From Marinitoga lauensis (GTDB taxonomy: Bacteria; Thermotogota; Thermotogae; Petrotogales; Petrotogaceae), in assembly GCF_004135675.1 (NCBI RefSeq), contig NZ_QHLX01000002.1:1-64000 (forward strand): a stretch of DNA of 64,000 nt. The letters are read 5' to 3'. Both the position numbers and the translations under genes were made by a program. Positions 6,261 to 53,225 of the stretch are shown here, piece by piece; position 1 is the stretch's first letter, and every line of letters begins with the position of its first letter. The notes below the pieces were generated by a model that was not told the DNA's origin, did no database searches, and saw only the letters and a program-made list of their open reading frames with translations.

Positions 6261-6266
6261 CTAAAA

Positions 6267-31853: not shown

Positions 31854-32772
31854 TTAATATTTCTTTAAATTTTCAAATAAAAGCTCTATAAATTTTTCTC
31901 TATCCACCTTTAAAGCCCATTTTGAATTGGGTTCCTTTAAATGCCAATAATCCACAACCGTTTCACCATAAGTTAATTCACCTTTTGTTTCAACCTGAGC
32001 ATAATATTCTTCAAATTCAAAAATATCCGGTTTTATTAAATAGGCTATAGTACATGGATCATGTAGCGGAGCACCTTTTATCTTAAAAATATCATAATAT
32101 GTTTGATGAAAAAATTCTAATAATTTTCCCATTTTGGATACAATTTCTGATTTCATATTCTGCATTTCTTTTATTTCATCCATATATATTTTAGCTTGAT
32201 GTGTAACATCAAGAGGAAATACCGTTAAGTTAAATCCAGCATTAAATACTATTTGTGCTGCCTCAGGATCCGCATAAATATTAAATTCTGCTCGAGGTGT
32301 AGTATTCCCAAACTTTATACCCCACCCATAATAACCAATTCTTTTACCAAAGGTACTAAATCTGGATAATTTAATGTAAATTTTGCAATATTTGTTAACG
32401 GTCCAACAGCTACTAAAGTTATTTCATTTGGGTTACTATATACATTTTCAGCTATAAATTCCAGATAATTCTTATTTTCTAATTTTTTTGTTGGTTCTGG
32501 TAAATTTGCACCTTCCAGACCACTCTCACCATGAATATTAGGAGCCACTATTTGCTCTCTTAATAATGGCTTTTCAGAACCTGCAAAAACAGGAATATCT
32601 AATTTTGCCATTTCCGATAAAATTAATGCATTTCGTGATGTGTTTTTTAAATACGAATTCCCTGCTACTGCAATAATTCCTAATAAATCGATTTCCTCTG
32701 CTATCCCGCTAATAATATTGCTACAGCATCATCATGTCCTGGATCACAATCAAGAATCACTTTTCTTTTCAT
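31854..32772 (-). CDS. Inosine/uridine-preferring nucleoside hydrolase (two frameshifts)
   Basis: The enzyme splits ribonucleosides into base and ribose. The N-terminal calcium-binding signature DCDPGHDDAVAILLA is intact, and VGPLTNIA, NIYADPEAA and ATP-independent hydrolase features follow. The frame breaks near 32706 and 32320, both in G runs; adding one G at each gives about 306 residues, the normal size. A GAGGAG site precedes the ATG at 32772. It lies 27 bases downstream of pabC and may be co-transcribed. Purine or pyrimidine salvage is the likely role, in line with the adenine deaminase and nucleoside transporter at 53.9-60.5 kb. Confidence 0.83.
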
Positions 32773-32798: not shown

Positions 32799-33575
32799 TT
32801 ACTTTGGTTCTATCTTTTTTTCAATCCATTTAATGTATTCATAATCAAATTCATACTTAATCTCTTCAAATCTCTTTATTGGCATAACTCTCATTAGAGA
32901 ATTGGTTAAAAAGGCATAATCAAAATCTTTTATATCTTTTCTTTTTATTATATCTTCTTTTACATTTAATTTAGAAATAAGAATTTTTCTTATAATTCCA
33001 TTTAAAAGGCCACATTCTATTTTAGGAGTATATATCTTACTGTCTTTCACAAAAAAAATATTAGATATACTTCCTTCTGTTATTTCATTTCTTTCATTTA
33101 AAAATATTGACTCATTCTTCTTTAGGTTTAATGCTCTATTTAATTCTATAATATTAATAACATAATTATTCGACTTTATATAATTCAACGGGTTTTGGCT
33201 AAATTTTGTACTTTCTGCAAATATTACTTCATATCCTGTTTTCTTCATTTTTTCTGTGTATATTTTATCGTTTGTAGTGATTATAATATCCGCTTTATTT
33301 TTATTTTTTAAAACATTTATTTTTAAACTTCCATTTGTTATTTTATTTATTTTTATCAGATATTTTGCCTCTTTAAATATTTCTTTTTTTGAAATATCAC
33401 AGATTATGTTTAAAATCCTACAACCTTCCAAAAGCCTTTCATAGTGTAAATCAAAAAATTCTACATAACCATTTATTACTTTTAATGTCTCAAACACACC
33501 CTGACCATACATCAATCCTTCATTTATTTTAAATGGAATTTCCTTTTTAAAATACTTCCCATTATAATATATCAT
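32799..33575 (-). CDS. pabC: Aminodeoxychorismate lyase (class IV aminotransferase fold)
   Basis: PabC removes pyruvate from aminodeoxychorismate to give 4-aminobenzoate for folate. The 258-residue protein has the fold-type IV PLP pattern: GLMYGQGVFETLKV near the N-terminus, KINVLK region with the PLP Lys probably near residue 140, and EITEGSISNIFFVK, the classic E-x-x-x-S-N motif. The start overlaps the pabB stop by four bases (ATGA), so translation is coupled. Context with pabA and pabB makes PabC far more likely than a branched-chain aminotransferase. Confidence 0.85.
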   Translation of the reverse strand: MIYYNGKYFKKEIPFKINEGLMYGQGVFETLKVINGYVEFFDLHYERLLEGCRILNIICDISKKEIFKEAKYLIKINKITNGSLKINVLKNKNKADIIITTNDKIYTEKMKKTGYEVIFAESTKFSQNPLNYIKSNNYVINIIELNRALNLKKNESIFLNERNEITEGSISNIFFVKDSKIYTPKIECGLLNGIIRKILISKLNVKEDIIKRKDIKDFDYAFLTNSLMRVMPIKRFEEIKYEFDYEYIKWIEKKIEPK

Positions 33576-34923
33576 TCCATTTTCAACCCTTCTATTAACG
33601 CTTTTCCTTTAACCAGCGATTCTTGATATTCCAATTCTGGATTAGAATCCCAAACTATCCCACCACCAAATTGAGCATAGGCTTTATTATTCTTACATAC
33701 AACTGTTCTAATAACAATATTTAAATCCATTGAGTTATCAAATCCTATGTATCCAATTGAACCAGTATATACATTCCTTTGTGTAGGTTCCAGTTCATCA
33801 ATAATCTCCATAGCTCTAATTTTTGGTGCTCCTGTTATTGAACCACCAGGAAATGTCGCCATTATTAAATCAATTGCATCTTTTTCTTCCTGTAATTCCC
33901 CAACTACTGTAGATACTAAATGATATACTGTTGCATATTCCTCTAAAACAAATAATTCAGGCACCTTTACACTCCCGGAACACATACTTTTGATATATCA
34001 TTTCTTTCTAAATCAACAATCATTAATAATTCCGCCTTATCTTTAGTGCTATTTATTAATTCTCTTTTATTTTTTTCATTGTTCTCAACATTATCTGTTT
34101 TTGGCCTTGTTCCTTTTATAGGTCTTGTCTCCACCATATTATCTTTTAACTTTATAAACCTTTCTGGAGAACTGGAAACAATTTGAAATTCACCAGTATC
34201 TATATATGCGGCAAAAGGAGCAGGATTTATATGTCTTAAATCATAAAATAATTCTTCTGATGATTTTATTAATTCTGTTTCTATTCTTTGGGTAAAATTT
34301 ATCTGGTAAACATCTCCTTCATATATATAATCTTTTATTCTTTTTATGGATTTTAAATAATATTCTTTTTCCATATTGAACTTTATATCTATATCAACTA
34401 TATTGTTTTTTTCTTTATATATAAAATTCTTTGAATTTTTTATAATTTTTTTCATTTCATGATGTTTATTCTCATTTAGACTGGTTAAATAGAGTTGCTT
34501 TTTAATATGATCATATATAATAATACTATCATAAAAACCAAAATACATATCATATATATCAACATCGTCAATAGAATTTAATTTAATTTCTTCAAGGTAT
34601 TTATTGCTATCATATCCTATATACCCCATTGCTCCACCAATAAAGGGTAATTCTGTATTATTTTCTATTTGATATTTTTTTAATAACTTTTTTAAATCCA
34701 CAAAAGGGTTATGAGAATGATATTCTATTTTATCTGTCCCTTTTTCTATTATTACTTTATTATTTTTTACTTTAAATATTAAAAAAGGATCTATTCCTAA
34801 AAAAGAACATTTTCCTAACCTTTCTTTATCTTTTTGACTATCTAAAAAAACTACATTTTTTTTACTTGGTAATGAGTAAAATATATCCAATAAATTTAAT
34901 TCAGTATTTATTTTTTCAACCAT
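33572..34923 (-). CDS. pabB: Aminodeoxychorismate synthase component I (one frameshift)
   Basis: PabB adds ammonia from PabA to chorismate. The chorismate-binding core is clear: YQINFTQRIETEL, SSSPERFIKL, TRPIKGTRP, then FPGGSITGAPKIRAMEIID and GSIGYIGFDNSMDLNI. The frame breaks near 33977, where adding one G to a GGG run joins DISKVCVPG to SVKVPELFV as in all relatives, giving about 450 residues. The ATG at 34923 after AAGGAAGGGA is chosen over an upstream ATG. It overlaps pabA by 8 bases. Confidence 0.88.
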
Positions 34924-35512
34924 TTTTATCCCTTCCTTTAATGCCTTTCGCATATTCAAGGAAATTTTTCAACATATCCAATCCATGTTCGGTTAAAACC
35001 GCTTCAGGATGAAATTGAACGCTTTCTATGGAATAATATTTATGTTTAATTGCCATGATTTCTCCATCCAATGTTTCTGCTGTAATTTCTAGTTCTTCTG
35101 GAAGATCTTCTTTTGATACGATTAAAGAATGATATCGGGTAACCTTTAATGGATTTTTTAATCCTTTAAATACACCTTTTGAAAAATGCCTTATAACAGA
35201 AACCTTTCCATGAATAGGTTCTTTAGCCTTTATTATTTTTGCTCCAAAACTTTGAGCAATGGTTTGATGTCCTAAACATACTCCAAAAATTGGTATTTTT
35301 TCTTTAAATTTTTTTATTATTTCTAAGGATATTCCTGCATCATCTGGAGTTTTTGGTCCAGGAGAAATTACTATCATATCTGGATTTAAAGCTTCTATTT
35401 CATTTAAAGTTATTTTATCATTTCTAAATACCTTAACCTCTTCATTTAACATATTTAAGTAATGCACCAGATTATAAGTAAAAGAGTCGTAATTATCAAT
35501 CATCAAAATCAT
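34916..35512 (-). CDS. pabA: Aminodeoxychorismate synthase glutaminase component
   Basis: A 198-residue class I glutamine amidotransferase. The catalytic triad is visible: Cys in GVCLGHQTIAQ, and His and Glu in SVQFHPEAVLTEHG. The start MILMIDNYDSFTYNLVHYL and the SPGPKTPDDAG oxyanion region are typical of PabA/TrpG. Because no trp genes are present and pabB-pabC follow, PabA is the preferred assignment. It is the first gene of the pab operon. Confidence 0.88.
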   Translation of the reverse strand: MILMIDNYDSFTYNLVHYLNMLNEEVKVFRNDKITLNEIEALNPDMIVISPGPKTPDDAGISLEIIKKFKEKIPIFGVCLGHQTIAQSFGAKIIKAKEPIHGKVSVIRHFSKGVFKGLKNPLKVTRYHSLIVSKEDLPEELEITAETLDGEIMAIKHKYYSIESVQFHPEAVLTEHGLDMLKNFLEYAKGIKGRDKNG

Positions 35513-35557: not shown

Positions 35558-37093
35558 CTATAACTTTTCTATTATATATTCTTCTATATTTCTTTTTTCT
35601 GAACTTATGTTTATTCCTATGAGATATATTTCTTTTCCTCTGTATTTTTCATAGTATTTCTTCTCTTTTATCTGTTTTATCGCCTCTTCTGCACTTTTGT
35701 CCAGTTTTGCTTCGAATATATATACCCTTTCATTGAATTCCAATACTACATCACTTCTCCCAATATTTGTCATTTCTTCTGCTCTTACATTTAATCCGGC
35801 TATTGCCAGTATTGCAAATATTAATGAGTGATAATATCTTTCTTCTTTTTCATGTAGATTATACGGTATTGAACTTATTACTTTTTTATTTCTTCTATTA
35901 ATCTTTCTATATCATTGTCATATATTTTTTCATATATTATATTTTCTGCTTCATCTAATCCTTTTAATCCATAGTTCGCTTCTAATATTAATCTTGAGAA
36001 ACTGCTTTTTACTTCTATGTTTGGATAATCAAGTATATATTTCTCTTTTAATCCTAATTTTTTTATTCCTTTGAAGGTTAAATATCCTGCCTGTGTAAAA
36101 AATATGTTTGCATTTGCATCTTCTATTTCTCTTGTTGAGAAATCCATTGCACTTACTGTTTCTTTTACTAAATCTTCATAGGTTATCTTTCTGTTTTTTA
36201 TGTATTCATATAGGAATGATGGAGATCCACTTTCAAACCAGTAATTTTGAAATTTCTTTTCTTCAAAAAATTTTAATATTGAAAATGGATTATATACATA
36301 ATGTTCTCCATCAAATGAAAATCCATTATAATACTCTTTTAATCCTTTTAATAATTCTTCTTCACTTATTCCCATTTCTTCTGATGTTTCTTTTATATGG
36401 TCTTTGAAATAAAATTCTAATTCTTCCTGTGTATATCCTAACATCTGTGAGTATTTTTTGTTTAATGATATATCGTTTAAATTATTTAATGCAGAGAATA
36501 CTCCTGTTTTTGTGAATTTCGTTATTCCGGTTATGAATACGAACTTTATGTATTCATCTTTTGTTTTTATTTTTTTATAAAACTCCCTTAGAAATCTTCT
36601 TACTTTTTCTGCTTCTTTTTGTTGTTTAGATGTTCTAATATTGGTGCTTCATATTCGTCTATTAATATTACCACTCTTTCTTTATATTTTTTATTTAATT
36701 CTTCTATTAAATTTCCAAATTGTGTAGGAAGGTTATTTTTTATAGGGTTATATCTTCACTTTTATATAATTTTTCCATTGTTTCATTTAACGATTCTATA
36801 AAATCTTCATATGTTGTTAGCATGTTATCAGACATATCGAGTTTTATTATCGGATATTCTTTAAATTCCCATTTGTCATATATATAAGTATCTTTGAATA
36901 ATTCTTTTTCTCCTTTGAATATATAATATAATGTTGATACTGTTAAGCTCTTTCTAAATCTTCTTGGACGGGATAAAAATATTGGCACTTCTGAACTTAT
37001 CAGGTCATATATATATTTCGTTTTATCCACATATACATAATTTCCTTCTATTATCTTTTTATAATCCTGTACTCCAATGGGTAATTTTTTCAT
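35558..37093 (-). CDS. AAA-ATPase-like/PD-(D/E)XK nuclease-like protein, copy A (frameshifts)
   Basis: This is a near-duplicate of the intact gene at 47215-48774. N-terminal AAA-ATPase-like domain: KLPIGVQDYKKIIEGNYVYVDKT and FLSRPRRFRKSLTVS, where the P-loop-like stretch reads RRFRKS instead of RRFGKS in copy B. The C-terminal PD-(D/E)XK part has GRSDVVLEF and YIFEAKLDKSAEEAI. The frame breaks near 36745 (C run), 36620 and 35880 (A runs), all repairable by one base. Such proteins (PF09820/PF08011 type) are common in multicopy in anaerobes; their function is unknown, and defence or mobile-element roles are only guesses. A GGAGG site lies 9 bases before the ATG at 37093. Confidence 0.7.
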
Positions 37094-37125
37094 TGTTTCC
37101 ACCTCCTACTGTCATAATTATACCA

Positions 37126-37335
37126 GAACTTTTCGCTTAGCGAAATGTTTAAGTTTTTTTATTATTAAAACAATTATTCCTAAAACCCTTCACGTTGTGA
37201 AGTGTTTCCGCTTTGCAAAAACTCTTCGCATAGCGAAATGTTTTAGCTTTAAAGAATTTTATTATTAAAATATTTTTCATAAACTCTTCGCATAGCGAAG
37301 AGTTTGGCTTCGCGAAGTGACGCATAGGCATTCGC
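37126..37335. repeat. Cluster of TTCGC..GCGAA palindromic repeats, site 1
   Basis: Several short palindromes of the form CTTCGCATAGCGAAG and TTCGCTTAGCGAAA stand in series, with variants (CTTCACGTTGTGAAG, CTTCGCGAAG) and AT-rich spacers. No gene is present. Similar clusters are at 44406, 47145 and 48870, always at the joints between duplicated modules. Confidence 0.65.
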
Positions 37336-37336
37336 C

Positions 37337-38059
37337 TTATTTTATTAATTCCAGTAACCGCTCTTCATTCTTTCTTGTTGTTTTTTCCAGTAATTCTCCT
37401 GTTTTTCTGTCTGTTATTATTTCTCCTTTTTTTAATACCACTATTCTATCCGTTTTTTCTATTTCACTAACATCATGACTCGCCAATATTATCGTTTTTC
37501 CATTTTTGGATAATTCTTCCATTATTTCATATATCTTTATCTTTGTTTCTATATCCACTCCATTTGTCGGTTCATCCAATAAATATATTTCCGCTTCTTT
37601 TATTAATGCTCTTGCTAAATTTAATCTCCTCTTCATTCCTGTTGATGCTTCCATATATTTAATCTTTCTGTTTTCGTATAGTCCCATCTCTTTTAATCCT
37701 TTTTCCACTTTCTTTTTTAATTCTTTTCCTGTTAGGTTATTTAACATTCCAAAGAAGTTTAGATTTTCTTCTAAACTCAATCTGTAGTAAAATGACCTTT
37801 CATTTGATGTTGCTATTGATATTAATTTTTTTATTTGTTTTACTTCTTTTTTTATGTCATATTCCTTTATTTTTATTTCTCCTTCATCGGGTATTATAAA
37901 CATTCCTATTGTTTTTATTAATGTTGTTTTTCCTGCTCCGTTAGGACCAAATATTGTTATTTTTTCTCCTCTGTTTATTGTAAGATTTATGTTTTTTAAT
38001 GCTTTTATTCCATTTTTGTATATTTTTGTCAGATTTTTTATTTCTATTATTGTTTCCAT
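37337..38059 (-). CDS. ABC transporter ATP-binding protein, copy A (RiPP cluster exporter)
   Basis: A 240-residue ABC ATPase with Walker [10 protein letters not shown], the signature region STGMKRRLNLARAL (LSGGQ-like, degenerate), Walker B EIYLLDEPTNGVD and switch His in ILASHDVSE. It is the partner of the ABC-2 permease at 38071 (11 bases apart). It is the last gene of the RiPP operon and is inferred to power export of, or self-protection from, the modified peptides. Its protein is about 96 percent identical by eye to the copy at 44482. Confidence 0.85.
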   Translation of the reverse strand: METIIEIKNLTKIYKNGIKALKNINLTINRGEKITIFGPNGAGKTTLIKTIGMFIIPDEGEIKIKEYDIKKEVKQIKKLISIATSNERSFYYRLSLEENLNFFGMLNNLTGKELKKKVEKGLKEMGLYENRKIKYMEASTGMKRRLNLARALIKEAEIYLLDEPTNGVDIETKIKIYEIMEELSKNGKTIILASHDVSEIEKTDRIVVLKKGEIITDRKTGELLEKTTRKNEERLLELIK

Positions 38060-38070
38060 TTTTTCACTTC

Positions 38071-38883
38071 CTAATATTGCGATATTGTGCCATATTTCCT
38101 GGCTTTATCAAAACTATTTTTAAACCAGTATATTCCTATTGGTAATATTATTATTGTCATTATTATTAATATTATTATATCTTCTTTTATCTGATATAAA
38201 CTATATCCTTTTATAAGTGTTTTTCTCAATCCATCCATTGCATATGTTGTTGGTAGTATATAGGATATTCCTCTTAACCATTTTGGTAATATTTCTACAG
38301 GATAATATATTCCCGAAAACATTCCTGTTAGAAATGAATATATCCAGCTTATTGGATCCCCTTTTTTGGTTATTACTATAAATCCGGCACTTAATAACCC
38401 TATTCCACTTAAACTTATCATTGTTATTATCAGTAATATTATTGAAGCTATTATATTCATTTTTATTTCCACATCAAATGTATATATTAAAAATATAAAG
38501 ACTATTCCTGTGTTTAATATTGTAAATACCAATTTTGAAAATATGGTGTATATAAACACTTCCCATAATGGCGTTTCAGACAGAAGCAGATATTCTATTG
38601 TTCCCATTACCTGCTCCTGTCTTATTACACTCTTGAATGTTGTTAAGGAGAGAGTAGTATAACTCATGAATACACTTCCTGATATGAAATATGCAAGTAT
38701 GTTTCCACCATATTGTTCAATCATGGGAAAGTAATTATCCTGAGCTATAAACCTTCCCATGAATCCAAATTGTAATAATCCCAGAAATCCACTGAGTATT
38801 CCCAACACTGCCTGTGTTTTATAACTTTTCCATATTAATATGTCTCTTGTTATATAATTTATAAATTTCCATAACTTTTTCAT
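38071..38883 (-). CDS. ABC-2 type permease, copy A (RiPP cluster exporter)
   Basis: A 270-residue membrane protein with six predicted helices, in the ABC-2/DrrB style: a cytoplasmic start (WKFINYITRDILIWKSYKTQ), the QEQVMGTIEYLLLS stretch after helix 2, and GMFSGIYYPVEILPKWLRG before the last helices. It begins 3 bases after the stop of the Cys-rich peptide gene at 38886 and precedes the ATPase gene, so it is within the RiPP operon. Export or immunity is inferred from position. Confidence 0.8.
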   Translation of the reverse strand: MKKLWKFINYITRDILIWKSYKTQAVLGILSGFLGLLQFGFMGRFIAQDNYFPMIEQYGGNILAYFISGSVFMSYTTLSLTTFKSVIRQEQVMGTIEYLLLSETPLWEVFIYTIFSKLVFTILNTGIVFIFLIYTFDVEIKMNIIASIILLIITMISLSGIGLLSAGFIVITKKGDPISWIYSFLTGMFSGIYYPVEILPKWLRGISYILPTTYAMDGLRKTLIKGYSLYQIKEDIIILIIMTIIILPIGIYWFKNSFDKARKYGTISQY

Positions 38884-38885
38884 TT

Positions 38886-39047
38886 TTAATCATCACACCA
38901 ATTCCAGAATCCTTTATCTTCTCCTTTACATCCAGCATTTTGTTCACATCCTTGATTGCTACATTCATCACAATTTTCTACTTTGTCTTTTCCCATATCG
39001 CAAAATGAAAATAAACTTTCTTCTCTTGGCTCATTTACGAATTCCAT
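38886..39047 (-). CDS. Cys-rich RiPP precursor peptide 1 (53 residues)
   Basis: The ATG at 39047 follows an excellent AGGAGG site that lies inside the end of the radical SAM gene. The peptide starts MEFVNEP, the leader motif shared with three other peptides in this operon, and has six Cys at positions 16, 26, 29, 34, 40 and 51. The core CDECSNQGCEQNAGC has the spacing C-x2-C-x4-C-x5-C. The tail is aromatic (GFWNWCDD). It overlaps the maturase gene by 17 bases. It is inferred to be a substrate for the two radical SAM enzymes; thioether links are expected but not shown. Confidence 0.75.
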   Translation of the reverse strand: MEFVNEPREESLFSFCDMGKDKVENCDECSNQGCEQNAGCKGEDKGFWNWCDD

Positions 39048-40376
39048 TTTTTCGCCTCCTGTATGTTTTTTCTGTTAATAATACCATTTCTTCTAAATTA
39101 TATTTTATTGGAAGACATCTTTCTCTGCCATATTCTATTACACCATATTTTTCTGCCAGCACTTTACCCAATATACATCCACCCATACAATATGGTAATA
39201 CTTTACAATTTTTACATTCTTCATCAAATGGATCTATTGCGAGCCATATATTTTTTCTGTAATTTAATTCCAGTTGTCCGTTTTCTTTTAATTCTCCTAT
39301 TTCTTTTGAAATACCACCTATTTCACCCCAGCACTTATATAATTTTCCGTCTGCATCGATTACCAGTGAATTTTTACTTGGTGCATCGCATCTTGCCTGA
39401 TTTATTTTTAAAAATGGATTGAAGTTATAATATTCTAGCTTTTCTATTATATAATTATATAATTCGCTTTCCATTTTTGCAAATTCTTTTATTGTAAATG
39501 ATTTTAGTTTATTATTATCTGCCATTTCACCCTGTCTTAAATCTATCTCTACTTTTAATTTATCCGCCGCTATTTTATCTATTAACATTTTTATACTTTT
39601 TATATTATGCGGAAATACATTTATTCTTATTTTTACAAAAAGCTCTTTTGCTGCTATTTTTATGTTTTCATATATTTTTTCAAATGTTCCTTTTCCATTT
39701 TTTAATACTCTTAATCTGTCATGTTCTTCTTTTGTTCCATCAAGCGTTATTATTAATTTATTTATTCCAGAATTTTTAAATTCTTCTATTGTTTTTTTAT
39801 CCAATAAATATCCGTTTGTTATTATAAACGGGTCATATTCAATTTTTTCTTTTTCGCATATTTTTTTTATTTCCCAACTTAAATTTTTTATTTTTTCTTT
39901 TTCCAGTAATGGCTCGCCACCCCAAAATGTTACGCTGAATATTTTTGGCTTTCTTTCTTTTATGTTTTCTTTTATCAGTTTTATTATGGAATCTATTGTA
40001 TTTTCTTTTATGCTGTTTATCTTAAATGGTTTTACGCTTATCTCTTTTGCCTGACTTTGATAGCAATATTTACAATTAAAATTACAATTGGTTGTCATTG
40101 TTATTGTTAGATGAAAGTAATCATTTGAAAATTGAAAATTTTTATATTTTGCTATTATTTCGCTTAATTCGTCTCTGTCATCTTCTATTATAAATCCGCC
40201 TTTTTTTAATATTTTTATGTCATTATCCTCTTTTTTTATAAGCTTTTCATTTAGAATTTTTTAATTTTTTCACTCTTTTCTTTTTCTATTCTCAATATTG
40301 CATTGGTCATTCCATTAAAAAGAAGAAGACTACCGTCTTCTTTTTCTATTAATGTATTATATTGCGAAGGTTTCAT
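39031..40376 (-). CDS. Radical SAM/SPASM peptide maturase 1 (one frameshift)
   Basis: The radical SAM cluster motif C-x3-C-x2-C is intact (CNFNCKYCYQS), followed by FWGGEPLLE (SAM-binding GGEP) and ITLDGTKEEHD. A SPASM-type C-terminus has the Cys set CWGE, ECKNCKVLPYCMGGC and a late Cys, able to hold two more Fe-S clusters. The N-terminal 90 residues resemble a small peptide-binding domain. The frame breaks near 40260, where one A is missing; the full protein is about 448 residues. The ATG at 40376 overlaps the stop of maturase 2 (ATGA). Such enzymes form Cys thioether bonds in sactipeptides or ranthipeptides. Confidence 0.85.
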
Positions 40377-41664
40377 TTAACCACCATCTTTTTTTCAAAA
40401 TTTTTTACTCTATACCATAATTTTATAAAACTTTCTGTTTCTCTTTTTTCTTCAGGACAACCTTTACTTCCACGAAGTGCAGCATTTCTGCATCCTCCAT
40501 GACATAACGGTAATATTTTACATTCTTTACATTTTTTATCCTCATACCCATTATAACTATGCCATTTTAAATGTTTTTTGTTTCTAATTTTATTTTCCCG
40601 TTTTCTATTTTCCCGAATTCCATCCCTTCTTCTACTGCAACTGTACATGGATATATTTCTCCTTCGGGTCCTATCACCATATTATATACGTTGTCAAATT
40701 CACAATACATATCTCCATTTAATATTGGCAGCATTACTTTAAATCCTCTATTTATTGCCATTTCATATAATTTTGAGAGTTTTGTAAATGAATTTTCTTT
40801 TCTGAAGTCCCTTACATGTATATGAAATTCTTCATTTCTTTCTGATGCCTGGAATATCCATCTAAAATATATTTTCATTCTTTCTTTTGGAAATTTTTCC
40901 AGATAATCAAATAATTCCTCAATTCTTTCATAATTTTCAGGACCTACATTTACTCTTATTGATACATTGGTTTCTTTTGTATTTTCAAATAACATTTCTA
41001 TTCCTTTTATTATTTTTTAAATGTTTTTCCTCCACCAACTAATGGTCTGTATATGTCATGTGTTTCTTCTATTCCATCAAGGGTTATCTGAACATTTTTT
41101 ATTTTTAATTCGTCAAATTTTGATACATCTATATAATTCAATAAGTATCCATTTGATGACATTGATGAAAATAGTTCTGCTTCACTTTCATCTATTATTT
41201 TTTTATTTATATATTCAATTGCCTTGAAATTCATCAATGGCTCGCCACCAAACCAACCTATTGAGATTGTTTTTTTATTTTTGCTACTGTTTATTATATA
41301 TTCTGCAATTTCTTCTGCTTTTTCTATTGTCATTATTTATTCCTTTTTGTTTCATAACAATATACACAATCAAAATTGCATTGAAAAGTTGGAATTATTG
41401 TAAACATCGCTCGAGAATTATCAAATCGTGCTCTGTAATTTCTCAATTTTATTTCTTCATATTCATTATATTCTTTTTCTATAATATATCCACCATATTT
41501 TAACTGTTCAAATAATTCCTTATCAACAATATTTCCTTTTAATATTTCTTTTATTTTTGAACATTTTCATGTTTTACTTCTGCTATCGCTCCTGTTCTTA
41601 AATTGACCAATACCGGAACTTTATCTATTTCTAAAAAGTAATTGTAATATGATTCTTTATACAT
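40373..41664 (-). CDS. Radical SAM/SPASM peptide maturase 2 (several frameshifts)
   Basis: Pieces in different frames join after adding one A at each of about four A runs (near 41570, 41337, 41012 and 40570), giving about 430 residues. Motifs: C-x3-C-x2-C as CNFDCVYCYET, GWFGGEPLMN, ITLDGIEETHD, and a SPASM end CKECKILPLCHGGC. The start (MYKESYYNYF) at 41664 overlaps the stop of peptide 2 by 8 bases. It is related to maturase 1 but clearly divergent, so the two may act on different peptides or sites. The breaks look like sequencing errors, since all key motifs survive. Confidence 0.8.
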
Positions 41665-41836
41665 TTTTTCCACCTGCCATGCAATTGGTACACATTGAAT
41701 CTGGTGGAATACACGTATCCATACATGTTCCTAAACATGAATCGCATCCTCCATCAATACATACTCCGCAGTTAGGGTTTACTTCACCACAATTATTTAT
41801 ATTATATCCCATTTTTGGATTACTAATAAATTCCAC
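41657..41836 (-). CDS. Cys-rich RiPP precursor peptide 2 (59 residues)
   Basis: A GTG start at 41836 is supported by AGGAGG 6 bases upstream and gives the shared leader MEFISNP. Nine Cys follow, at residues 16, 23, 26, 31, 34, 38, 42, 49 and 52. The core begins C-x2-C-x4-C as in the other peptides but then continues with close pairs (CDSCLGTCMDTC). It overlaps maturase 2 by 8 bases, so its translation is tied to that enzyme. It has the most Cys of the set and a Gly-Gly near the end. Confidence 0.72.
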   Translation of the reverse strand: MEFISNPKMGYNINNCGEVNPNCGVCIDGGCDSCLGTCMDTCIPPDSMCTNCMAGGKNV

Positions 41837-41889
41837 AATATTCCTCCTATCTTTCTAAAATTATTCGAATTTTATTATAATTCTAAATA

Positions 41890-41923
41890 CTTTACCTCCC
41901 TGAATTCGATACAGGAGGTAAAG
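41890..41923 (-). terminator. Hairpin between peptides 3 and 2
   Basis: CTTTACCTCC pairs with GGAGGTAAAG around a 14-base loop. No clean T run follows on the minus strand, so it is more likely an attenuator or mRNA-processing stem that sets peptide-to-enzyme ratios than a full terminator. Confidence 0.55.
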
Positions 41924-41937
41924 CTTGTCACATAAAT

Positions 41938-42060
41938 TTAATTATTACAACTCTTATTATGTTCACACATATCATTAAAACAAAATGAACAATTTATATT
42001 CTTTTCACAAAAATCTAATTCTTTATTTGATTTGTCAATAGGTTTATTAATAAATTCCAT
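41938..42060 (-). CDS. Cys-rich RiPP precursor peptide 3 (40 residues)
   Basis: The ATG at 42060 follows GGGAG. The peptide begins MEFINKP and carries Cys at 18, 24, 27, 32 and 38, with CSFCFNDMCEHNKSC giving the same C-x2-C-x4-C-x5-C core as peptides 1 and 4. It is the shortest member and ends NN directly after the core. It lies 24 bases after peptide 4 in the same direction. Confidence 0.72.
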   Translation of the reverse strand: MEFINKPIDKSNKELDFCEKNINCSFCFNDMCEHNKSCNN

Positions 42061-42084
42061 TTTATCTCCCTTTAAAATTATTAC

Positions 42085-42258
42085 TTATCCAATAGGAATA
42101 CAATAAGGATTAATTGGTGGACATGCATAATCTGGTTCACAACTTGGATTACAACTTTGATTCTGTTCGCATCCACCATTATGGCATGAACTACAGTTCT
42201 GATCTTTATCACAAAAATCTGTTTGATATTCATTATTCGGATGATTCAAAAACTCCAT
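42085..42258 (-). CDS. Cys-rich RiPP precursor peptide 4 (57 residues)
   Basis: The ATG at 42258 follows a GAGGGG site. The leader is MEFLNHP, and the core CSSCHNGGCEQNQSC is very close to that of peptide 1 (CEQN is shared). Cys are at 16, 22, 25, 30, 36, 40, 46 and 53; the tail has Pro-rich PPINPYCIPIG. It is the first of the three precursor genes upstream of the maturases. Small paired palindromes at 42284-42306 lie just upstream and may regulate it. Confidence 0.73.
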   Translation of the reverse strand: MEFLNHPNNEYQTDFCDKDQNCSSCHNGGCEQNQSCNPSCEPDYACPPINPYCIPIG

Positions 42259-42401
42259 TTTACCCCTCTTTAAATTTGTTTTTTCCAGTACTGGTTAACA
42301 GCCGGCTGAAAAATTTTAATTTTAGTTTATAAAACCACATTATATTACAAAAGTATCATATGTTATAATATTAATAAACCAGTTGAGTATAGAGTTGTTT
42401 T

Positions 42402-42533
42402 TTATTCAGAAATCTCATTTTGAATTTGAGGATTGGTTGAATCGGTTTTATATTTATCCTCATTATCGCCTGCAAAAATAATATTTGTTGAAATTAATAA
42501 AAGAGTAATAAATAAAAGCACTATTTTTTTCAT
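42402..42533 (-). CDS. Small secreted peptide (43 residues)
   Basis: GGAGGTGA lies just before the ATG at 42533. Residues 1-21 are a clear signal peptide (KKIVLLFITLLLIS, cut after FAG or nearby). The released part, about 22 residues, is polar and has no Cys (GDNEDKYKTDSTNPQIQNEI), so it differs from the RiPP precursors. It stands at the head of the RiPP operon, facing away from the large gene at 42805. A signalling peptide is one possibility; an exported spacer or a truncated lipoprotein-like peptide are others. Confidence 0.55.
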   Translation of the reverse strand: MKKIVLLFITLLLISTNIIFAGDNEDKYKTDSTNPQIQNEISE

Positions 42534-42804: not shown

Positions 42805-44395
42805 ATGAAGATTAATAAAATGTTTCTTAAAAGTATTATTGATATAGTCGAGTACGGAAGTTTTTCAAAACCAATTGTGAATTATATAGAAAACAATATT
42901 AACGATATTTCATTAAAATATTATATTTCTTTATTAAAATCCAAGTGGAAAAGAGATTATTATTCAGCTATCGATTATGCTAATAAAACTATTTCAACAA
43001 CAACAACAACAACAATATTAAGAGAACTTGCAAGATTCGAACTTGTTTCTTTATACACTAAAATAGGAAAATTTAATTACGCAAAAAAGAAATTAATATT
43101 TTAAAAAATAATTTTGATAAACTTCCATCATATGCAAGATGTTTAATGTTACCAGGTTTGAATTTGTTCAATAAATCGCATAATATAACTGATAATTTTA
43201 AAGTTTATTCAGTCAATTACACTGAAAATGATTTGGATAGAGCTATTTTGAGTTATTCAAAAGCAAGAGATTTGATTAAGAAAGAAGAGTATTCAGAAGC
43301 ATATAAAAATTTTATTGAAGGCTTTTTTCTTTCTAAAAAATTTCCTCATCCTACAATGATTTGCAATGGTTTAAATGGAGCAGCATGGTGGATAAGAAAA
43401 ACAGATAAAAAGAAAGCTTTGATTACAACTGATTTATTGGAATATTATATTGGTTATTATTTTGAAGATTTATCTAAAATATATAACTGGTTTGATACCG
43501 TTTTTGAAGTGAAAAAAAGCAATAATGATATCACAATATTTGATATATCTAATATTGTTATTAAATTGAATAAATTAAATAGAGTTAAAATAAAAAAACA
43601 GTTTTTCCATTTTATTCCAGATATTTCTTCATCAACTTATAATATAACTAATGAATTAAAAAATTATATTTTAAAATATGCAGATTTAAGAGTCAAAAAA
43701 GAAATTATAAATTCAAGAAGCATATTAAAAATCATAAATTCAAAAAAAATAAATTATACTTCCATAAAACCTTATGCTATTAAAAATGAATTTTATAAAC
43801 TACACCAAAAAAATTATTTAATTATTCAATAGTAAAATTTAGCAAATTAAAAAATATTATTATTATACCTTTATTTTTCTCAACATATACAGCATTAATA
43901 AAAAAACCACATTTTACAAAGAGTCGTGTTTTAAGATTGATTTTTGAAGGAGATAAAGATAAAATCATTAAATACTTCTCAGGTGATTATGAGAAGATGT
44001 ATTTTTTTAATTTGATGGTATCAGATTTTGACGTGAAAGAAGCGGAAAAAAGATTATTGAACCAAGAATATTTCAAAATACTTGAACATAATGTTTCAAC
44101 ATTTTTTATTGGAAGAAAAAAACTCATCATTGAGCTTTTTAAAAATGCGAAGAATATCAAAGATTTTATTATTCACTATTTCAAACTCAATGATGAGGAA
44201 ATGAGGATATTTGATGTGTTTTTGAGAAATTGTGTTCGATATGATATTAAATGGCCAATTATACCTTATTCTGAAGGCAAAATCAAAGATTTTGCAATTA
44301 AATATGGTCTTGGTCAAAAAAGAGTTGCTTTAGGCTATTATTCTTTTGAAGATAATGAAAGAATTTTTCTTGATTCTATTATTGAAAAATTTTAG
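42805..44395 (+). CDS. Large helical protein divergent from the RiPP operon (two frameshifts)
   Basis: Three pieces join if one A near 43085 and one T near 43830 are added, giving about 530 residues. It is Lys/Ile/Tyr-rich and helical, with TPR-like stretches (YYISLLKSKWKRDYYSAIDYANKT and SYSKARDLIKKEEYSEAYKNF, each shorter than 25 residues). The C-terminal KDFAIKYGLGQKRVALGYYSF could be a DNA-binding helix pair but is not a known HTH. I do not recognise the family. Position and divergent direction suggest a regulator, perhaps sensing the secreted peptide at 42402. A partial copy of its 3' end stands at 46915. Confidence 0.5.
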
Positions 44396-44481: not shown

Positions 44482-45204
44482 TCATTTTATTAATTCCAAC
44501 AATCTTTCTTCATTTTTCCTTGTTGTTTTTTCCAGTAATTCTTCTGTTTTCCTGTCTGCTGTTATTTCTCCTTTTTTTAATACCACTATTCTATCTGTTT
44601 TTTCTATTTCACTAACATCATGACTCGCCAATATTATCGTTTTTCCATTTTTGGATAATTCTTCCATTATTTCATATATCTTTATCTTTGTTTCTATATC
44701 CACTCCATTTGTCGGTTCATCCAATAAATATATTTCCGCTTCTTTTATTAATGCTCTTGCTAAATTCAATCTCCTTTTCATTCCTGTTGATGCTTCCATA
44801 TATTTAATCTTTCTGTTTTTGTATAATCCCATCTCTTTTAATCCTTTTTCCACTTTCTTTTTTAATTCTTTTCCTGTTAGGTTATTTAACATTCCAAAGA
44901 AGTTTAGATTTTCTTCTAAACTCAATCTGTAGTAAAACGACCTTTCATTTGATGTTGCTATTGATATTAATTTTTTTATTTGCTTTGATTCTTTTTTTAT
45001 GTCATCTCCTTTTATTTTTATTTCTCCATCATCGGGTATTATAAACATTCCTATTGTTTTTATTAATGTTGTTTTTCCTGCTCCGTTAGGTCCAAATATT
45101 GTTATTTTTTCTCCTCTGTTTATTGTAAGATTTATGTTTTTTAATGCTTTTATTCCATTTTTGTATATTTTTGTCAGATTTTTTATTTCTATTATTGTTT
45201 CCAT
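44482..45204 (-). CDS. ABC transporter ATP-binding protein, copy B
   Basis: A 240-residue ABC ATPase with intact Walker A (GPNGAGKTT), Walker B (EIYLLDEPTNGVD) and switch His. It differs from copy A (37337-38059) at only about nine residues by eye, so the duplication is recent or under conversion. Its direct partner permease at 45216 is a deletion remnant, so it may now serve copy A's permease or the permease at 45491, or be dispensable. Confidence 0.85.
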   Translation of the reverse strand: METIIEIKNLTKIYKNGIKALKNINLTINRGEKITIFGPNGAGKTTLIKTIGMFIIPDDGEIKIKGDDIKKESKQIKKLISIATSNERSFYYRLSLEENLNFFGMLNNLTGKELKKKVEKGLKEMGLYKNRKIKYMEASTGMKRRLNLARALIKEAEIYLLDEPTNGVDIETKIKIYEIMEELSKNGKTIILASHDVSEIEKTDRIVVLKKGEITADRKTEELLEKTTRKNEERLLELIK

Positions 45205-45215
45205 TTTTTCACTTC

Positions 45216-45458
45216 CTAATATTGCGATATTGTACCGTATTTCCTGGCTTTATCAAAACTTTTTTTAAACCAGTATATTCCGTCATATAGTTCAATCATG
45301 GGAAAGTAATTGCCCTGAGCTATAAACCTGCCCATGAATCCAAATTGTAATAATCCCAGAAATCCACTCAGTATTCCCAACACTGCCTGTGTTTTATAGC
45401 TTTTCCATATTAATATGTCTCTTGTTAAAAAATACAAAAACTTTTTTATTATTTTCAT
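45216..45458 (-). pseudogene. ABC-2 permease copy B, internally deleted
   Basis: The 80-residue product joins the first 57 or so residues of the copy A permease (WKSYKTQAVLGILSGFLGLL) directly to its last 22 (GIYWFKKSFDKARKYGTISQ). About 190 residues with most membrane helices are missing, in frame. Both ends and flanking sequence match 38071-38883, so this is a deletion derivative. It is unlikely to work as a transporter. Confidence 0.8.
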
Positions 45459-47144: not shown

Positions 47145-47240
47145 TAATTATTCCTAAAACACTTCGCATGGCGAAGTGTTTTTAGTTTTTTTATTTATAA
47201 TAAAAATATTTTTACTAAAACCCTTCGCGAAGCGAAGTGC
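47145..47240. repeat. TTCGC..GCGAA palindromic repeats, site 3
   Basis: ACACTTCGCATGGCGAAGTGT and CTTCGCGAAGCGAAG units lie at the 3' end of AAA gene copy B. The last unit runs into the coding sequence, so the final codons of that gene (STSLREGF) come from the repeat. Confidence 0.65.
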
Positions 47241-48774
47241 TTTTTTCAATAATATAATCCTCAATATTTCTTTTTTCTGAATTTATGTTTATTCCTATAA
47301 GATATATTTCTTTTCCTTTGTATTTTTCATAGTATTTCTTCTCTTTTATCTGTTTTATCGCCTCTTCTGCACTTTTGTCCAGTTTTGCTTCGAATATATA
47401 TACTCTTTCATTGAATTCTAATACTACATCGCTTCTTCCAAGATTTGTCATTTCTTCTGCTCTTACGTTTAATCCTGCTATTGCCAGTATTGCAAATATT
47501 AATGAGTGATAATACCTTTCTTCTTTTTGATGTAAGTTATACGGTATTGCACTTATTACTTTTTTTATTTCTTCTATTAATCCGTCTATATCATTGTTGT
47601 ATATTTTTTCATATATTATGTTTTCTGCTTCATCTAATCCTTTTAATCCATAGTTTGCTTCTAATATTAATCTTGAGAAACTGCTTTTTACTTCTATGTT
47701 TGGATAATCAAGTATATATTTCTCTTTTAATCCTAATTTTTTTATTCCTTTGAAGGTTAAATATCCTGCCTGTGTAAAAAATATGTTTGCATTTGCATCT
47801 TCTATTTCTCTTGTTGAGAAATCCATTGCACTTACTGTTTCTTTTACTAAATCTTCATAGGTTATCTTTCTGTTTTTTATGTATTCATATAGGAATGATG
47901 GAGATCCACTTTCAAACCAATAATTTTTAAACTTCTTTTTTTGAAAGAAGTTTAATATTGAAAATGGATTATATACATAATGTTCTCCATCAAATGAAAA
48001 TCCATTATAATATTCTTTTAATCCTTTTAATAATTCTTCTTCACTTATTCCCATTTTTTTTGATGTTTGTTCTATATGGTCGCTAAAATACGTTTCCAAT
48101 TCTTCCTGCGTATATCCTAACATTTGTGAATAATCACTATCTAATGATATATCGTTTAAATTATTTAATGCAGAGAATACTCCTGTTTTTGTGAATTTCG
48201 TTATTCCAGTTAAGAATACAAACTTTATATATTCGTCTTTTGTTTTTATTTTTTTATAAAACTCCCTTAGAAATCTTCTTACTTTCTCTGCTTCTTCTTT
48301 ATTGTTTAGATGTTCTAATATTGGCGCTTCATATTCATCTATTAATATTACCACTCTTTCTTTATGTTTTTTGCTTAATCCAGTTATTAAGTTTCCAAAC
48401 ATCGTTGGTAAATCATCTGTTGTTGGTTCTATTTCCTGTTCTTTATATAATTCATTAATTTTATCATATAATGATTTAATAAATTCTTCATATGAGCTCA
48501 AATTATTATCAGACATATCCAGTTTTATTATTGGATATTCTTTAAATTCCCATTTGTCATATATATAAATATCTTTGAATAACTCTTTTTCACCTTTGAA
48601 TATATAATATAATGTTGATACTGTTAAGCTCTTTCCAAATCTTCTTGGTCGAGATAGAAAATAAAATTTTCCACTTGTCATTAAATCATATAGATATTTT
48701 GTTTTATCCACATATATATAATTTTCGGTTATTAATTCTTTATAATCCTGTACCCCTATTGGCAATTTTTTCAT
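47215..48774 (-). CDS. AAA-ATPase-like/PD-(D/E)XK nuclease-like protein, copy B (intact)
   Basis: An unbroken gene of 519 codons starting at the ATG 48774, 8 bases after a GGAGG site. Residues 1-230 are AAA-ATPase-like: LPIGVQDYKELITENYIYVDKT, P-loop-like FLSRPRRFGKSLTVS, Walker B VVILIDEYEAPI and FLTGITKFTKTGVF. Residues 430-510 look like a PD-(D/E)XK nuclease: GRSDVVLEFNERVYIFEAKL. The function of this family is unknown. The C-terminus differs from copy A because a palindromic repeat has replaced the end. The gene stands between repeat sites 3 and 4, as a movable unit would. Confidence 0.8.
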   Translation of the reverse strand: MKKLPIGVQDYKELITENYIYVDKTKYLYDLMTSGKFYFLSRPRRFGKSLTVSTLYYIFKGEKELFKDIYIYDKWEFKEYPIIKLDMSDNNLSSYEEFIKSLYDKINELYKEQEIEPTTDDLPTMFGNLITGLSKKHKERVVILIDEYEAPILEHLNNKEEAEKVRRFLREFYKKIKTKDEYIKFVFLTGITKFTKTGVFSALNNLNDISLDSDYSQMLGYTQEELETYFSDHIEQTSKKMGISEEELLKGLKEYYNGFSFDGEHYVYNPFSILNFFQKKKFKNYWFESGSPSFLYEYIKNRKITYEDLVKETVSAMDFSTREIEDANANIFFTQAGYLTFKGIKKLGLKEKYILDYPNIEVKSSFSRLILEANYGLKGLDEAENIIYEKIYNNDIDGLIEEIKKVISAIPYNLHQKEERYYHSLIFAILAIAGLNVRAEEMTNLGRSDVVLEFNERVYIFEAKLDKSAEEAIKQIKEKKYYEKYKGKEIYLIGININSEKRNIEDYIIEKSTSLREGF

Positions 48775-48805
48775 CGACTCCACCTCCTGTTTTAATTATA
48801 TCATA

Positions 48806-51293: not shown

Positions 51294-53225
51294 TCCTGCC
51301 TTTGACAGCAATTTGGCGATTTTAAGGGAAATGGAACGGTAGAATGCGGGTTTGAGGCGTGTATTTTTCAGGAAGTCGAAAAATTGTGTGGCTAACTTTT
51401 GTTACAGAGAATTAACTATAATTAGTAATATATTAGTCCTTTTGGTGGTATAATATATATGACAACCACTGAAAGGAGATGTTTTAAAATGTATCCTAAA
51501 ATATCAAAAGTGAAAGGAAAAAGATATTTAAGGATAATGGAAAGCAAAAGAGAAAATGGAAAAGTGAAACAGCATACAGTAATAAATTTTGGAAATATAG
51601 ATAAGTATAGTAAAAAAGATATAACAAAACTTGTAGATAGTCTTTTTAAAATATTTGAAATAGATGAATATGAAAAAATAGAAGATGATTTAATGGAAGA
51701 AATAGCAAGAAGAAATTACGGAGCCAAAGTAATAGTAAATAAGATATTTGAAAGATATGAGATGAAAAGATATTTTGAAAGACTGGATAAAGAAATAAAA
51801 TACAATGCAGAAGAAATGTTAAAAATAATGGTGATGAATAGAATAGTAGAACCGAAGAGTAAATTGGGAATATTTAATAATTTAGAGTATTTTGGATATA
51901 ACAAAGTGGAAGTTAAAAAAGAAAAAGACCTGGAAGAAAAAGATGTAATGTTGCACTGGTTATACAGAACATTGGATATATTAGCAGATAATAAAGAGTC
52001 GATAGAAAAACATATGTATAATCAAAGGATAAGTTTGTTTAATACAACGGTAGATTTAGTATTTTACGATGTAACAACATTAGCGTTTGAAACACAACAA
52101 ACAAATGAAATATTACAAATGGGATATTCAAAAGATAAGAAATTCAATGAGTCGCAAGTAGTATTAGGAATGTCAATAGATCAAGATAGAATGCCAGTTA
52201 GTTTTGATATATATGCAGGAAATACATTCGAAGGGCATACATTCAAAGATTCAATAGAAAAAATGAAAAAAGAATATCAATTAGGAAAAGTAATAGTAGT
52301 AGCAGATAGAGGAATGATGAGTAAAAAAAATATAGAAGTAGTAGAAAATTCTAATTATGAATTCATAGTAGGAAAATCAATAAAACAAATAAAAAAAGTA
52401 AATATATTTGAAGGAGAATTCATAGAACTAGCAAAAGGAATAAAATATAGAGAAGTAGAATATGAAAATAAAAGATTACTCATAATATATTCAGAAGAAA
52501 GAGCCAAAAAAGACAGAGCAGATAGACTACGATTAATAGAAAAAGCGAAAAAAATGTTAGAAGAAGGAAATATAGATTCCAAAAGTAAAAGAGGAGCGAA
52601 AAAATATTTAAAAGAACAGAACAAACAAAATTATATACTGGACATAGAAAAAATAGAAAATGATGAAAAATACGATGGATACTATGGAATAATAACAAAC
52701 ACAAAACTATCGCCAAAAGAAATATTAGAACAATATCATACATTATGGAAAGTAGAAGAAACATTTAGAACATTAAAAAATTATCTTGAAACAAGACCGG
52801 TATTTCATTGGACACCGAAAAGAATAAAAGGACATATTGTAATGAGTTTCATATCTTACATAATTCAAAGAACATTAGAATTAGAACTGGAAAAAAATAA
52901 TATTGAATACTCTCATGAAAAAATAAGAGAAGCTATAAAAAAATGGAATACTCTGAAATAAGATTAAAAGACAAATTATTTGCATTAAGAGCCAATTTAA
53001 ACGATTTTCAAAAAGCCATATTAAAAACATTAAAAATAGAAAAACCGAAAAAAATGATGGAATTAGATGAATTTAAAAAAATAATCTCCTAAAACACGCA
53101 TGAAAAGCCAAAAAGGAGGAGGTGTGTGGCTAATTTCTCTTTTTATAAAAAGTTAACAATAGCTATTTTTTTGAATAATTCTACTTTTTAGAATTTTGTT
53201 GATAATAATAGTGTCAAACTCAGGA
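51294..53225 (+). mobile_element. IS1634-like insertion sequence, 1932 bp
   Basis: The ends are inverted repeats: left TCCTGCCTTTGACAGCAAT, right (complement) TCCTGAGTTTGACACTATT. One transposase gene fills the element. It is flanked by 287-bp direct repeats. Members of the IS1634 family are known to make unusually long and variable direct repeats, up to several hundred bases, which fits. A second copy's end is at 1-52. Confidence 0.88.
51489..53092 (+). CDS. IS1634 family DDE transposase (one frameshift)
   Basis: The ATG at 51489 follows AAAGGAGA and gives the family start MYPKISKVKGKRYLRIMES. The acidic triad is visible: first Asp in VFYDVTTLAFE, second in VVADRGMMSKKN, and Glu in YHTLWKVEETFRTLK (Y-x3-W-x2-E-x6-K, the IS4-superfamily YREK-like signature). 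The frame breaks near 52943; adding one A extends the protein by about 46 residues to 53092, for about 534 in total. If the A is really missing, only the tail is altered. Confidence 0.88.

Follow-up and report, generated by a model that had tools for sequence, protein, structure and literature searches.

A radical SAM/SPASM RiPP operon of Marinitoga lauensis and its candidate peptide-pheromone switch

We analysed a 64,000-nucleotide stretch of Marinitoga lauensis DNA (the window; NCBI RefSeq assembly GCF_004135675.1, contig NZ_QHLX01000002.1, positions 1 to 64,000), whose minus strand carries an operon for ribosomally synthesized and post-translationally modified peptides (RiPPs): three Cys-rich peptides (A1 to A3), two radical S-adenosylmethionine (SAM)/SPASM maturases, a fourth Cys-rich peptide (B), an ABC-2 permease and its ATPase. 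Upstream of A1 lies a short open reading frame (ORF) with a signal-peptide-like N terminus, and divergent from it runs the gene of a candidate regulator of about 530 amino acids (aa), which resembles tetratricopeptide repeat (TPR) proteins. Our preferred reading, held with moderate confidence, is that this RiPP operon, probably of the thioether kind, is switched on by its own peptide signal. By analogy with the RRNPP family, the regulator and its signal ORF would on balance form a peptide-pheromone switch of changed domain order that controls RiPP cassettes in Thermotogota. The gene content, the synteny, the purifying selection, the association of regulator and signal ORF with SPASM genes, and a common promoter-like element are observed features of the locus and its relatives.

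A divergent family of candidate regulators accompanies SPASM genes

A three-row alignment of the regulator found family members in 59 of the 103 genomes of the class. For the counts that follow, 15 genomes were chosen, non-blindly, for their regulator matches and few contigs; one of them (G085; genomes, contigs and loci carry our own handles) was dropped as multi-contig, and in the remaining 14, three of which are near-identical Thermotoga genomes, matches were merged by place into 64 loci, fragments included. Forty-three of these loci lie within 10 kb of a match to TIGR04085, the SPASM model (2000 circular shifts gave 2.73 on average and 18 at most), and 38 lie within 5 kb (mean 1.63, maximum 12); some genome lengths were rounded in this calculation. 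Seen from the other side, 58 of 82 SPASM matches fall within 10 kb of a regulator, a count that includes sub-cut-off matches and one from G085.

The domain make-up of the family was visible mainly in its more distant members. Among 34 aligned sequences, TPR_12 was recognized in six (best E-value 9.8e-10), HTH_26 in six (7.6e-7), and HTH_3 in four (7.3e-6), and some members combine a TPR-like N-terminal part, a central Cro/C1 helix-turn-helix (HTH) domain and a further C-terminal region. When the central segments of four members were excised and scanned, HTH_26 reached 34.0 (in G093), 20.6, and 28.1 bits against a cut-off of 22, and the Petrotoga-type segment matched only HTH_3 (E=0.076). Genus-1 members (the genus of the window) scanned singly gave no Pfam or NCBIfam match of note. 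A search of solved structures returned nothing from three regulator sequences, and with all 34 the best matches, RPN6 (E=0.012) and SRP72 (0.13), were not significant.

Several regulator loci sit in multi-module islands, in which each regulator and signal-peptide pair comes with its own, differing radical SAM or ABC cassette (L074, L098, L022, L170, L171, and L081-L082). G093 offers one such example, with four regulator loci within 1324-1352 kb, and a HicB-like gene lies beside a regulator of this genome.

A signal-peptide ORF and a promoter-like element recur at the regulators

To count signal ORFs, 13 of the 64 loci (<700 bases) were dropped, leaving 51 regulators, and 298 control ORFs were taken from the same loci. 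A divergent signal-peptide ORF was found at 28 of the 51 regulators and for 10 of the 298 controls under a first rule, and at 32 regulators and a single control under a revised one. The mature parts of these peptides are similar among paralogues of one genus (for example NPQIQ in genus 1), so cross-talk between paralogous pairs is possible. The same signal-peptide head also stands upstream of a further RiPP cassette, which encodes several Cys-rich peptides with M-x-W-I-E-K leaders and the same type of exporter (L022 844-2673, L024 6054-7882, and L086 5719-10074).

Upstream of the signal-peptide gene of the window we located a 28-bp element made of TTGAAA, 16 bases, and TAAAAT, with a conserved spacer. 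Aligning the 130 bases 5' of signal-peptide genes (from G000, G002, G003, G009, G017, G093, and G095) revealed a common CTTGAAAAYCATRT...TAWRAT stretch in three genera. The pattern TTGAAARYCATRTNNRRANNNNTAWRAT, allowing up to two mismatches, matched 111 times in 13 genomes, compared with 21 matches for a reversed control; G000 has 25 matches, 15 of which stem from a single repeated sequence and do not mark regulators. Across the seven of these 13 genomes that were counted, the exact element occurs 22 times; 21 copies have a regulator within 5 kb (expectation 1.0), and 15 are divergent from and within 600 bases of a regulator start. With up to two mismatches the corresponding numbers are 51, 41, and 30. 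Genomes outside the alignment also carry it, 240-340 bases 5' of regulator matches, namely G001 (three), G004, G005, G006 (two), and G014 (C53). In G002, whose sequence went into the alignment, one exact copy lies 191 bases before maturase 1. Within the window there are two matches at up to three mismatches, a number that chance can explain (21 of 100 shuffles yield at least two); the case for the element rests on the genome counts.

A second recurrent element, a 14-base palindrome (TTCAGCCGGCTGTT), lies in the leader between the signal-peptide gene and A1. It has nine copies in five of seven same-genus genomes, and its reversed control has none. Eight copies were read (that of the window, L076:3512, L157:11613, L057:8951, L151:5108, L090:3947, L078:6077 and 13764): all precede the first cassette gene and are followed by a second, varying palindrome. 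In four of the copies the palindrome lies 62-91 bases 3' of an intact signal-peptide gene, and the cassettes behind it differ. A cassette-exchange site, an attenuator, and a binding site are all candidate roles. RNA structure in this element was considered and rejected, as no compensatory pair was found and one-sequence z-scores were -0.71, -0.51, and 0.16.

Composition of the operon

The coordinates of all features are collected in Table 1. A sequence-only reading of the window had described an eight-gene RiPP operon with an exporter, and these genes are present where it placed them, with domain and ABC matches that agree with the assignment. Its span of 37337..42533, however, takes in a ninth ORF that it did not mention, the signal-peptide gene. 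Nor did it note the divergent regulator or the frame breaks: neither maturase is a single intact ORF in the assembly. Overlaps of 4 to 17 bases, described for the whole operon, exist at three of the seven junctions (8 bases between A3 and maturase 1, 4 between the two maturases, and 17 between maturase 2 and B), whereas the other four are gaps of 24, 101, 2, and 11 bases. The proposed common leader and Cys core hold in outline: the peptides begin with M-E-F-x-x-x-P and carry Cys residues around NCxxCxNxxC, but this pattern varies from peptide to peptide. A terminator scan found no terminator-like site between the signal-peptide ORF and A1.

Table 1. Features of the RiPP locus in the window (positions in the 64,000-nucleotide stretch)
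Feature	Position	Strand	Basis
Cys-rich peptide A1, 57 aa	42085..42258	-	ORF list, peptide comparison, dN/dS
Cys-rich peptide A2, 40 aa	41938..42060	-	ORF list, peptide comparison, dN/dS
Cys-rich peptide A3, 59 aa, GTG start	41657..41836	-	ORF list, peptide comparison, dN/dS
Radical SAM/SPASM maturase 1, four frame breaks in assembly	40373..41664 (approx.)	-	Models; intact 431-aa orthologues
Radical SAM maturase 2, one frame break near 40245-40260	39031..40376	-	Models; intact orthologues
Cys-rich peptide B (fourth peptide), 53 aa	38886..39047	-	Kept in every lineage compared
ABC-2 permease	38071..38883	-	PF01061, 60.8 bits
ABC ATPase	37337..38059	-	PF00005, 111.3 bits
Terminator-like hairpin 3' of the operon	37224..37238	-	Match to consensus only
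43-aa ORF with signal-peptide-like N terminus, candidate propeptide of a secreted signal	42402..42533	-	Homologues beside other regulators
28-bp promoter-like element, 19 bases 5' of the signal-peptide start codon	42553..42580	-	Exact match and recurrence
Leader element TTTCAGCCGGCTGTT, between signal-peptide gene and A1	42297..42311	-	Sequence recurrence
Divergent TPR-like regulator candidate, three frames in assembly	42805..44395	+	Intact 532-aa homologue L074:13120-14718

Beyond the regulator, at 44482-45458 on the minus strand, the ATPase recurs as a 96%-identical copy, together with an internally deleted permease, a remnant of another cassette. The locus is set in a region that is rich in mobile elements as judged by eye, with repeated MKKLPIGVQDYK-type genes and a transposase-like ORF around it (35558-37105, 47218-48795, and 51429-52958).

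Maturases and precursors in relation to known families

The broad class of the operon is that of radical SAM/SPASM RiPP maturases, with both domains and adjoining Cys-rich precursors present: PF04055 (Radical_SAM) was found in maturase 2 (E=3.8e-24), the C-terminal piece of maturase 1 reached 35.1 bits against TIGR04085 (cut-off 27), and SPASM was found in both maturase orthologues of G002 and G003. Below this level, the window maturases score best against TIGR04463, the Clo7bot maturase model TIGR04334, and the CefB maturase model. The intact G003 orthologues stay below the curated cut-offs of 600 bits (TIGR04334) and 525 bits (TIGR04463), with 246.1 and 244.5 bits for maturase 2 and 199.2 and 203.9 bits for maturase 1.

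The precursors match no family model well among the models scanned. The Clo7bot precursor model TIGR04333 gave A1 10.7 bits (E=0.37; cut-off 31) and none of the other three window peptides a match, and none of 101 relatives rose above its cut-off. The likeness to Clo7bot raised by the sequence-only reading was borne out as far as short Cys peptides and a related SPASM maturase go, but membership was rejected, because maturase (246 vs 600 bits) and precursor both fall below curated cut-offs. The window operon also differs in its two maturases and two peptide types. PapB-type ranthipeptide maturases share the SPASM architecture, and their model NF047865 was matched over most of its length (E=3e-34), with scores of 118.7 and 122.7 bits against a cut-off of 340. 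Anaerobic-sulfatase-type maturation without a peptide partner, raised at the outset as an alternative, was also rejected, as the sulfatase-maturase model scored only 81 bits and conserved peptides adjoin the maturases. The products of the window operon are probably thioether-bridged, which would make them candidate ranthipeptides or sactipeptides.

Conservation points to peptide B as the probable core substrate

An orthologue of maturase 2 with 82-87% identity and a frame of 446-450 aa was found in five of six same-genus genomes (G001-G005), each with a 431-aa maturase 1 adjoining it, and the sixth, G006, yielded only weaker relatives. Three A peptides lie upstream in G001, G004, and G005. The ratio of nonsynonymous to synonymous substitution rates (dN/dS) is 0.02-0.35 for the four peptides (computable pairs; two pairs were not computable), 0.09 for maturase 1, and 0.11 for maturase 2, and peptides and maturases are under purifying selection. 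The concern that the peptide genes might not be conserved in relatives did not materialize.

The eight-gene layout itself, which the sequence-only reading could not match elsewhere, is not new. In G093 the full order is regulator, divergent signal-peptide ORF, three A peptides (55, 38, and 56 aa), two maturases, a B peptide of 61 aa, permease, and ATPase. A contig of a Caldisericales metagenome-assembled genome (L008) carries three A-like peptides, two maturases, a B-like peptide, and then the ATPase before the permease, and in G047 five A-like peptides precede two maturases, of which the second is truncated where the contig ends, with a regulator gene upstream of them.

Genomes without A peptides are informative on the substrates. 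No Cys-rich A peptide with a ribosome-binding site precedes maturase 1 in G002, G003, G014, G017, or G019, and in G015 only a truncated remnant is left, yet all six genomes have open frames for B and both maturases. When a profile built from 15 A peptides was run against 13 genomes, G000, G001, G004, G005, and G047 were the only ones in which it matched A peptides; it hit G002, G003, and G015 only at B, and gave no match in G014, G017, and G019. This profile misses some divergent B peptides, and a very divergent A peptide elsewhere might also escape it. Between the A-less G002 and G003, maturase 1 has a dN/dS of 0.09, and we rejected, as the sole role of the two enzymes, a division of labour in which maturase 1 serves A and maturase 2 serves B, since purifying selection still acts on maturase 1 where the A peptides are missing. 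Across 11 sequences, B does not vary at M1, E2, F3, N5, P7, C16, C26, C29, N31, C34, and W50. Because the A-less genomes keep both maturases and B, B is probably the core substrate of both enzymes and the A peptides would be accessory. The loss of A with both maturases kept points to B as the first substrate candidate.

Proposed mechanism and alternative explanations

In the mechanism that we propose, the 43-aa peptide would be exported, cut after its signal sequence, and re-imported, and might then be bound by the TPR-like N-terminal domain of the regulator. The regulator, or in genus 1 a partner that supplies DNA binding, would act at the TTGAAA-RYCATRT-TAWRAT promoter, which would drive the signal gene and the RiPP genes together, giving positive feedback when cells are dense or have entered stationary phase. 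B, as the invariant substrate, would be modified by both SPASM enzymes, with Cys thioethers as the likeliest modification; in some lineages the A peptides may also be modified (three in the window, five in G047), and the dedicated ABC-2 exporter would secrete the products. More broadly, we see about an even chance that Thermotogota hold a large undescribed peptide-pheromone family, with a propeptide of ~35-80 aa, a divergent receptor (N-terminal TPRs, a central Cro/C1 HTH lost in some lineages, and a new C-terminal domain), a signature promoter TTGAAARYCATRT-NNRRANNNN-TAWRAT, roughly a dozen copies per genome at most, and swappable RiPP cassettes.

Several observations weigh against a switch operated by the operon's own peptide. 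In this assembly neither the maturases nor the regulator have intact frames. The window regulator pieces and their nearest intact homologue gave no Pfam match at all, no HTH was recognized in genus-1 homologues scanned singly, and most genus-1 rows of the alignment have a degenerate central HTH segment or none, so that direct DNA binding by the window regulator is only putative. The Caldisericales genome with the same RiPP layout returned no regulator match, and G005 has no intact signal-peptide gene directly upstream of its operon. The rule for signal ORFs was changed once after its misses had been inspected, 19 of the 51 regulators fail the revised rule (in six of these an ORF looks plausible by eye), and nine of the 51 come from the three near-identical Thermotoga genomes. 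Within genomes, co-variation of peptide and regulator N terminus gave no clear answer, with Spearman coefficients of 0.31, 0.26, and 0.79 (p 0.19, 0.20, and 0.04; 7, 5, and 5 pairs). As for the promoter-like element, its counts are partly circular in the genomes that the alignment had used, a first pattern with the wrong spacing found little, and the element is absent at all counted regulators of G007 (three) and G009 (four) and at five of eight in G023.

Three other explanations were weighed against the preferred one. The locus could be an ordinary Clo7bot-like RiPP operon, whose signal ORF is a secreted accessory (an immunity or co-secreted peptide) and whose TPR-like protein has another role, such as chaperone or anti-activator. 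The Clo7bot-like maturase models, the missing HTH in the genus of the window, and the Caldisericales operon without a regulator and signal pair fit such an operon, but the pair recurs beside many different SPASM clusters, divergent and at a regular distance, distant homologues carry an HTH, and a promoter-like element is shared between loci; we regard this explanation as unlikely. Alternatively, the mature RiPP might itself be the signal that the TPR-like protein senses, as the dedicated exporter, the conserved B, and the regulator gene adjoining the operon would allow, and SCIFF-derived ranthipeptides have been proposed as signals in clostridia, in work cited in a passage of PMC8326336. The signal ORF, however, stays with the regulator while the downstream RiPP genes change between cassettes, and we hold sensing of the RiPP to be improbable.

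The frame breaks raise the third explanation, that the locus is decaying in this organism and that the broken maturases and regulator are real pseudogenes. Compared with the G003 and G001 orthologues (93% DNA identity), four single bases are missing from maturase 1, all of them in A-runs, which divides the gene between frames; maturase 2 has an open frame of just 409 codons, and the regulator is short of one base near 43083 and of one near 43806 relative to orthologues from the same genomes. Breaks in all three genes, and the truncated second transporter copy nearby, would suit decay. Against it, the peptides and the transporter are intact, and other long genes of the window are split in the same way (6261-7857, 31857-32728, and 33575-34968, by eye), which suggests many small indel errors in the assembly. 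Because of these split genes and a completeness rating of 87.92%, assembly error is probably the cause, and with the maturase 1 breaks confined to A-runs in a gene otherwise 93% identical in DNA to its orthologues we judge pseudogenes to be distinctly unlikely.

Relation to known systems and implications

The lead towards a Cys-rich peptide locus of Thermotoga maritima, given by the sequence-only reading, was right. The mark of a TM1316-type locus is gene order together with homologous parts, and G093 shows the window's order, including regulator and signal ORF, a homologous B, and the HicB-like gene beside its regulator. Its locus is probably TM1316, where we infer both the identity of G093 with strain MSB8 and the locus name. 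TM1316 transcription is reportedly triggered by stationary phase and nutrient levels, to go by the title of a 2013 paper by Frock et al. that stands in the reference lists of PMC13157175 and PMC11594946. PMC11594946 cites that paper for the hicAB locus of T. maritima MSB8.

The closest functional parallel, by analogy, is found in streptococci, where, according to passages of PMC13361665, Rgg/SHP pairs control radical-SAM RiPPs (RaS-RiPPs); a TPR (in the window TPR-like) regulator, an adjoining small secreted peptide, and a radical SAM RiPP operon are the likenesses (excerpts of PMC13361665 and PMC12445099). RRNPP transcription factors, as a section of PMC12445099 describes them, have an N-terminal HTH and C-terminal TPRs. 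The Thermotogota regulator differs in having a TPR-like N-terminus, an HTH that is central in some members and missing in the genus of the window, and an extra C-terminal region. Of the RRNPP hallmarks, the adjoining short secreted propeptide gene is present, the TPR domain appears at family level only (with none in the window pieces or their nearest homologue), and the N-terminal HTH is not there.

What appears new is the signal-peptide ORF that heads the operon and the divergent TPR-like regulator. By undescribed we mean not found in searches of open-licence papers, outside which the TM1316 paper falls. No paper joining Thermotoga and RRNPP was found in this literature; a broader pairing led to a single review, on phage-plasmids, and no open-licence paper was found on Clo7bot with radical SAM.

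For thermophiles, peptide-based quorum sensing is still an unsettled matter. A 2018 survey (PMC6022435), which covered 106 thermophilic bacteria and 21 archaea, detected no peptide system that was complete and names T. maritima as the only species for which peptide signalling had been reported. If our reading is true, the pairs described here would supply candidate receptors for Thermotoga peptide signalling, which that survey did not find, and with them dozens of candidate signals and promoters. They would offer a reason for the stationary-phase switching of the Cys-peptide locus, and would mirror, in a remote phylum with two membranes, the Rgg/RaS-RiPP logic of streptococci.

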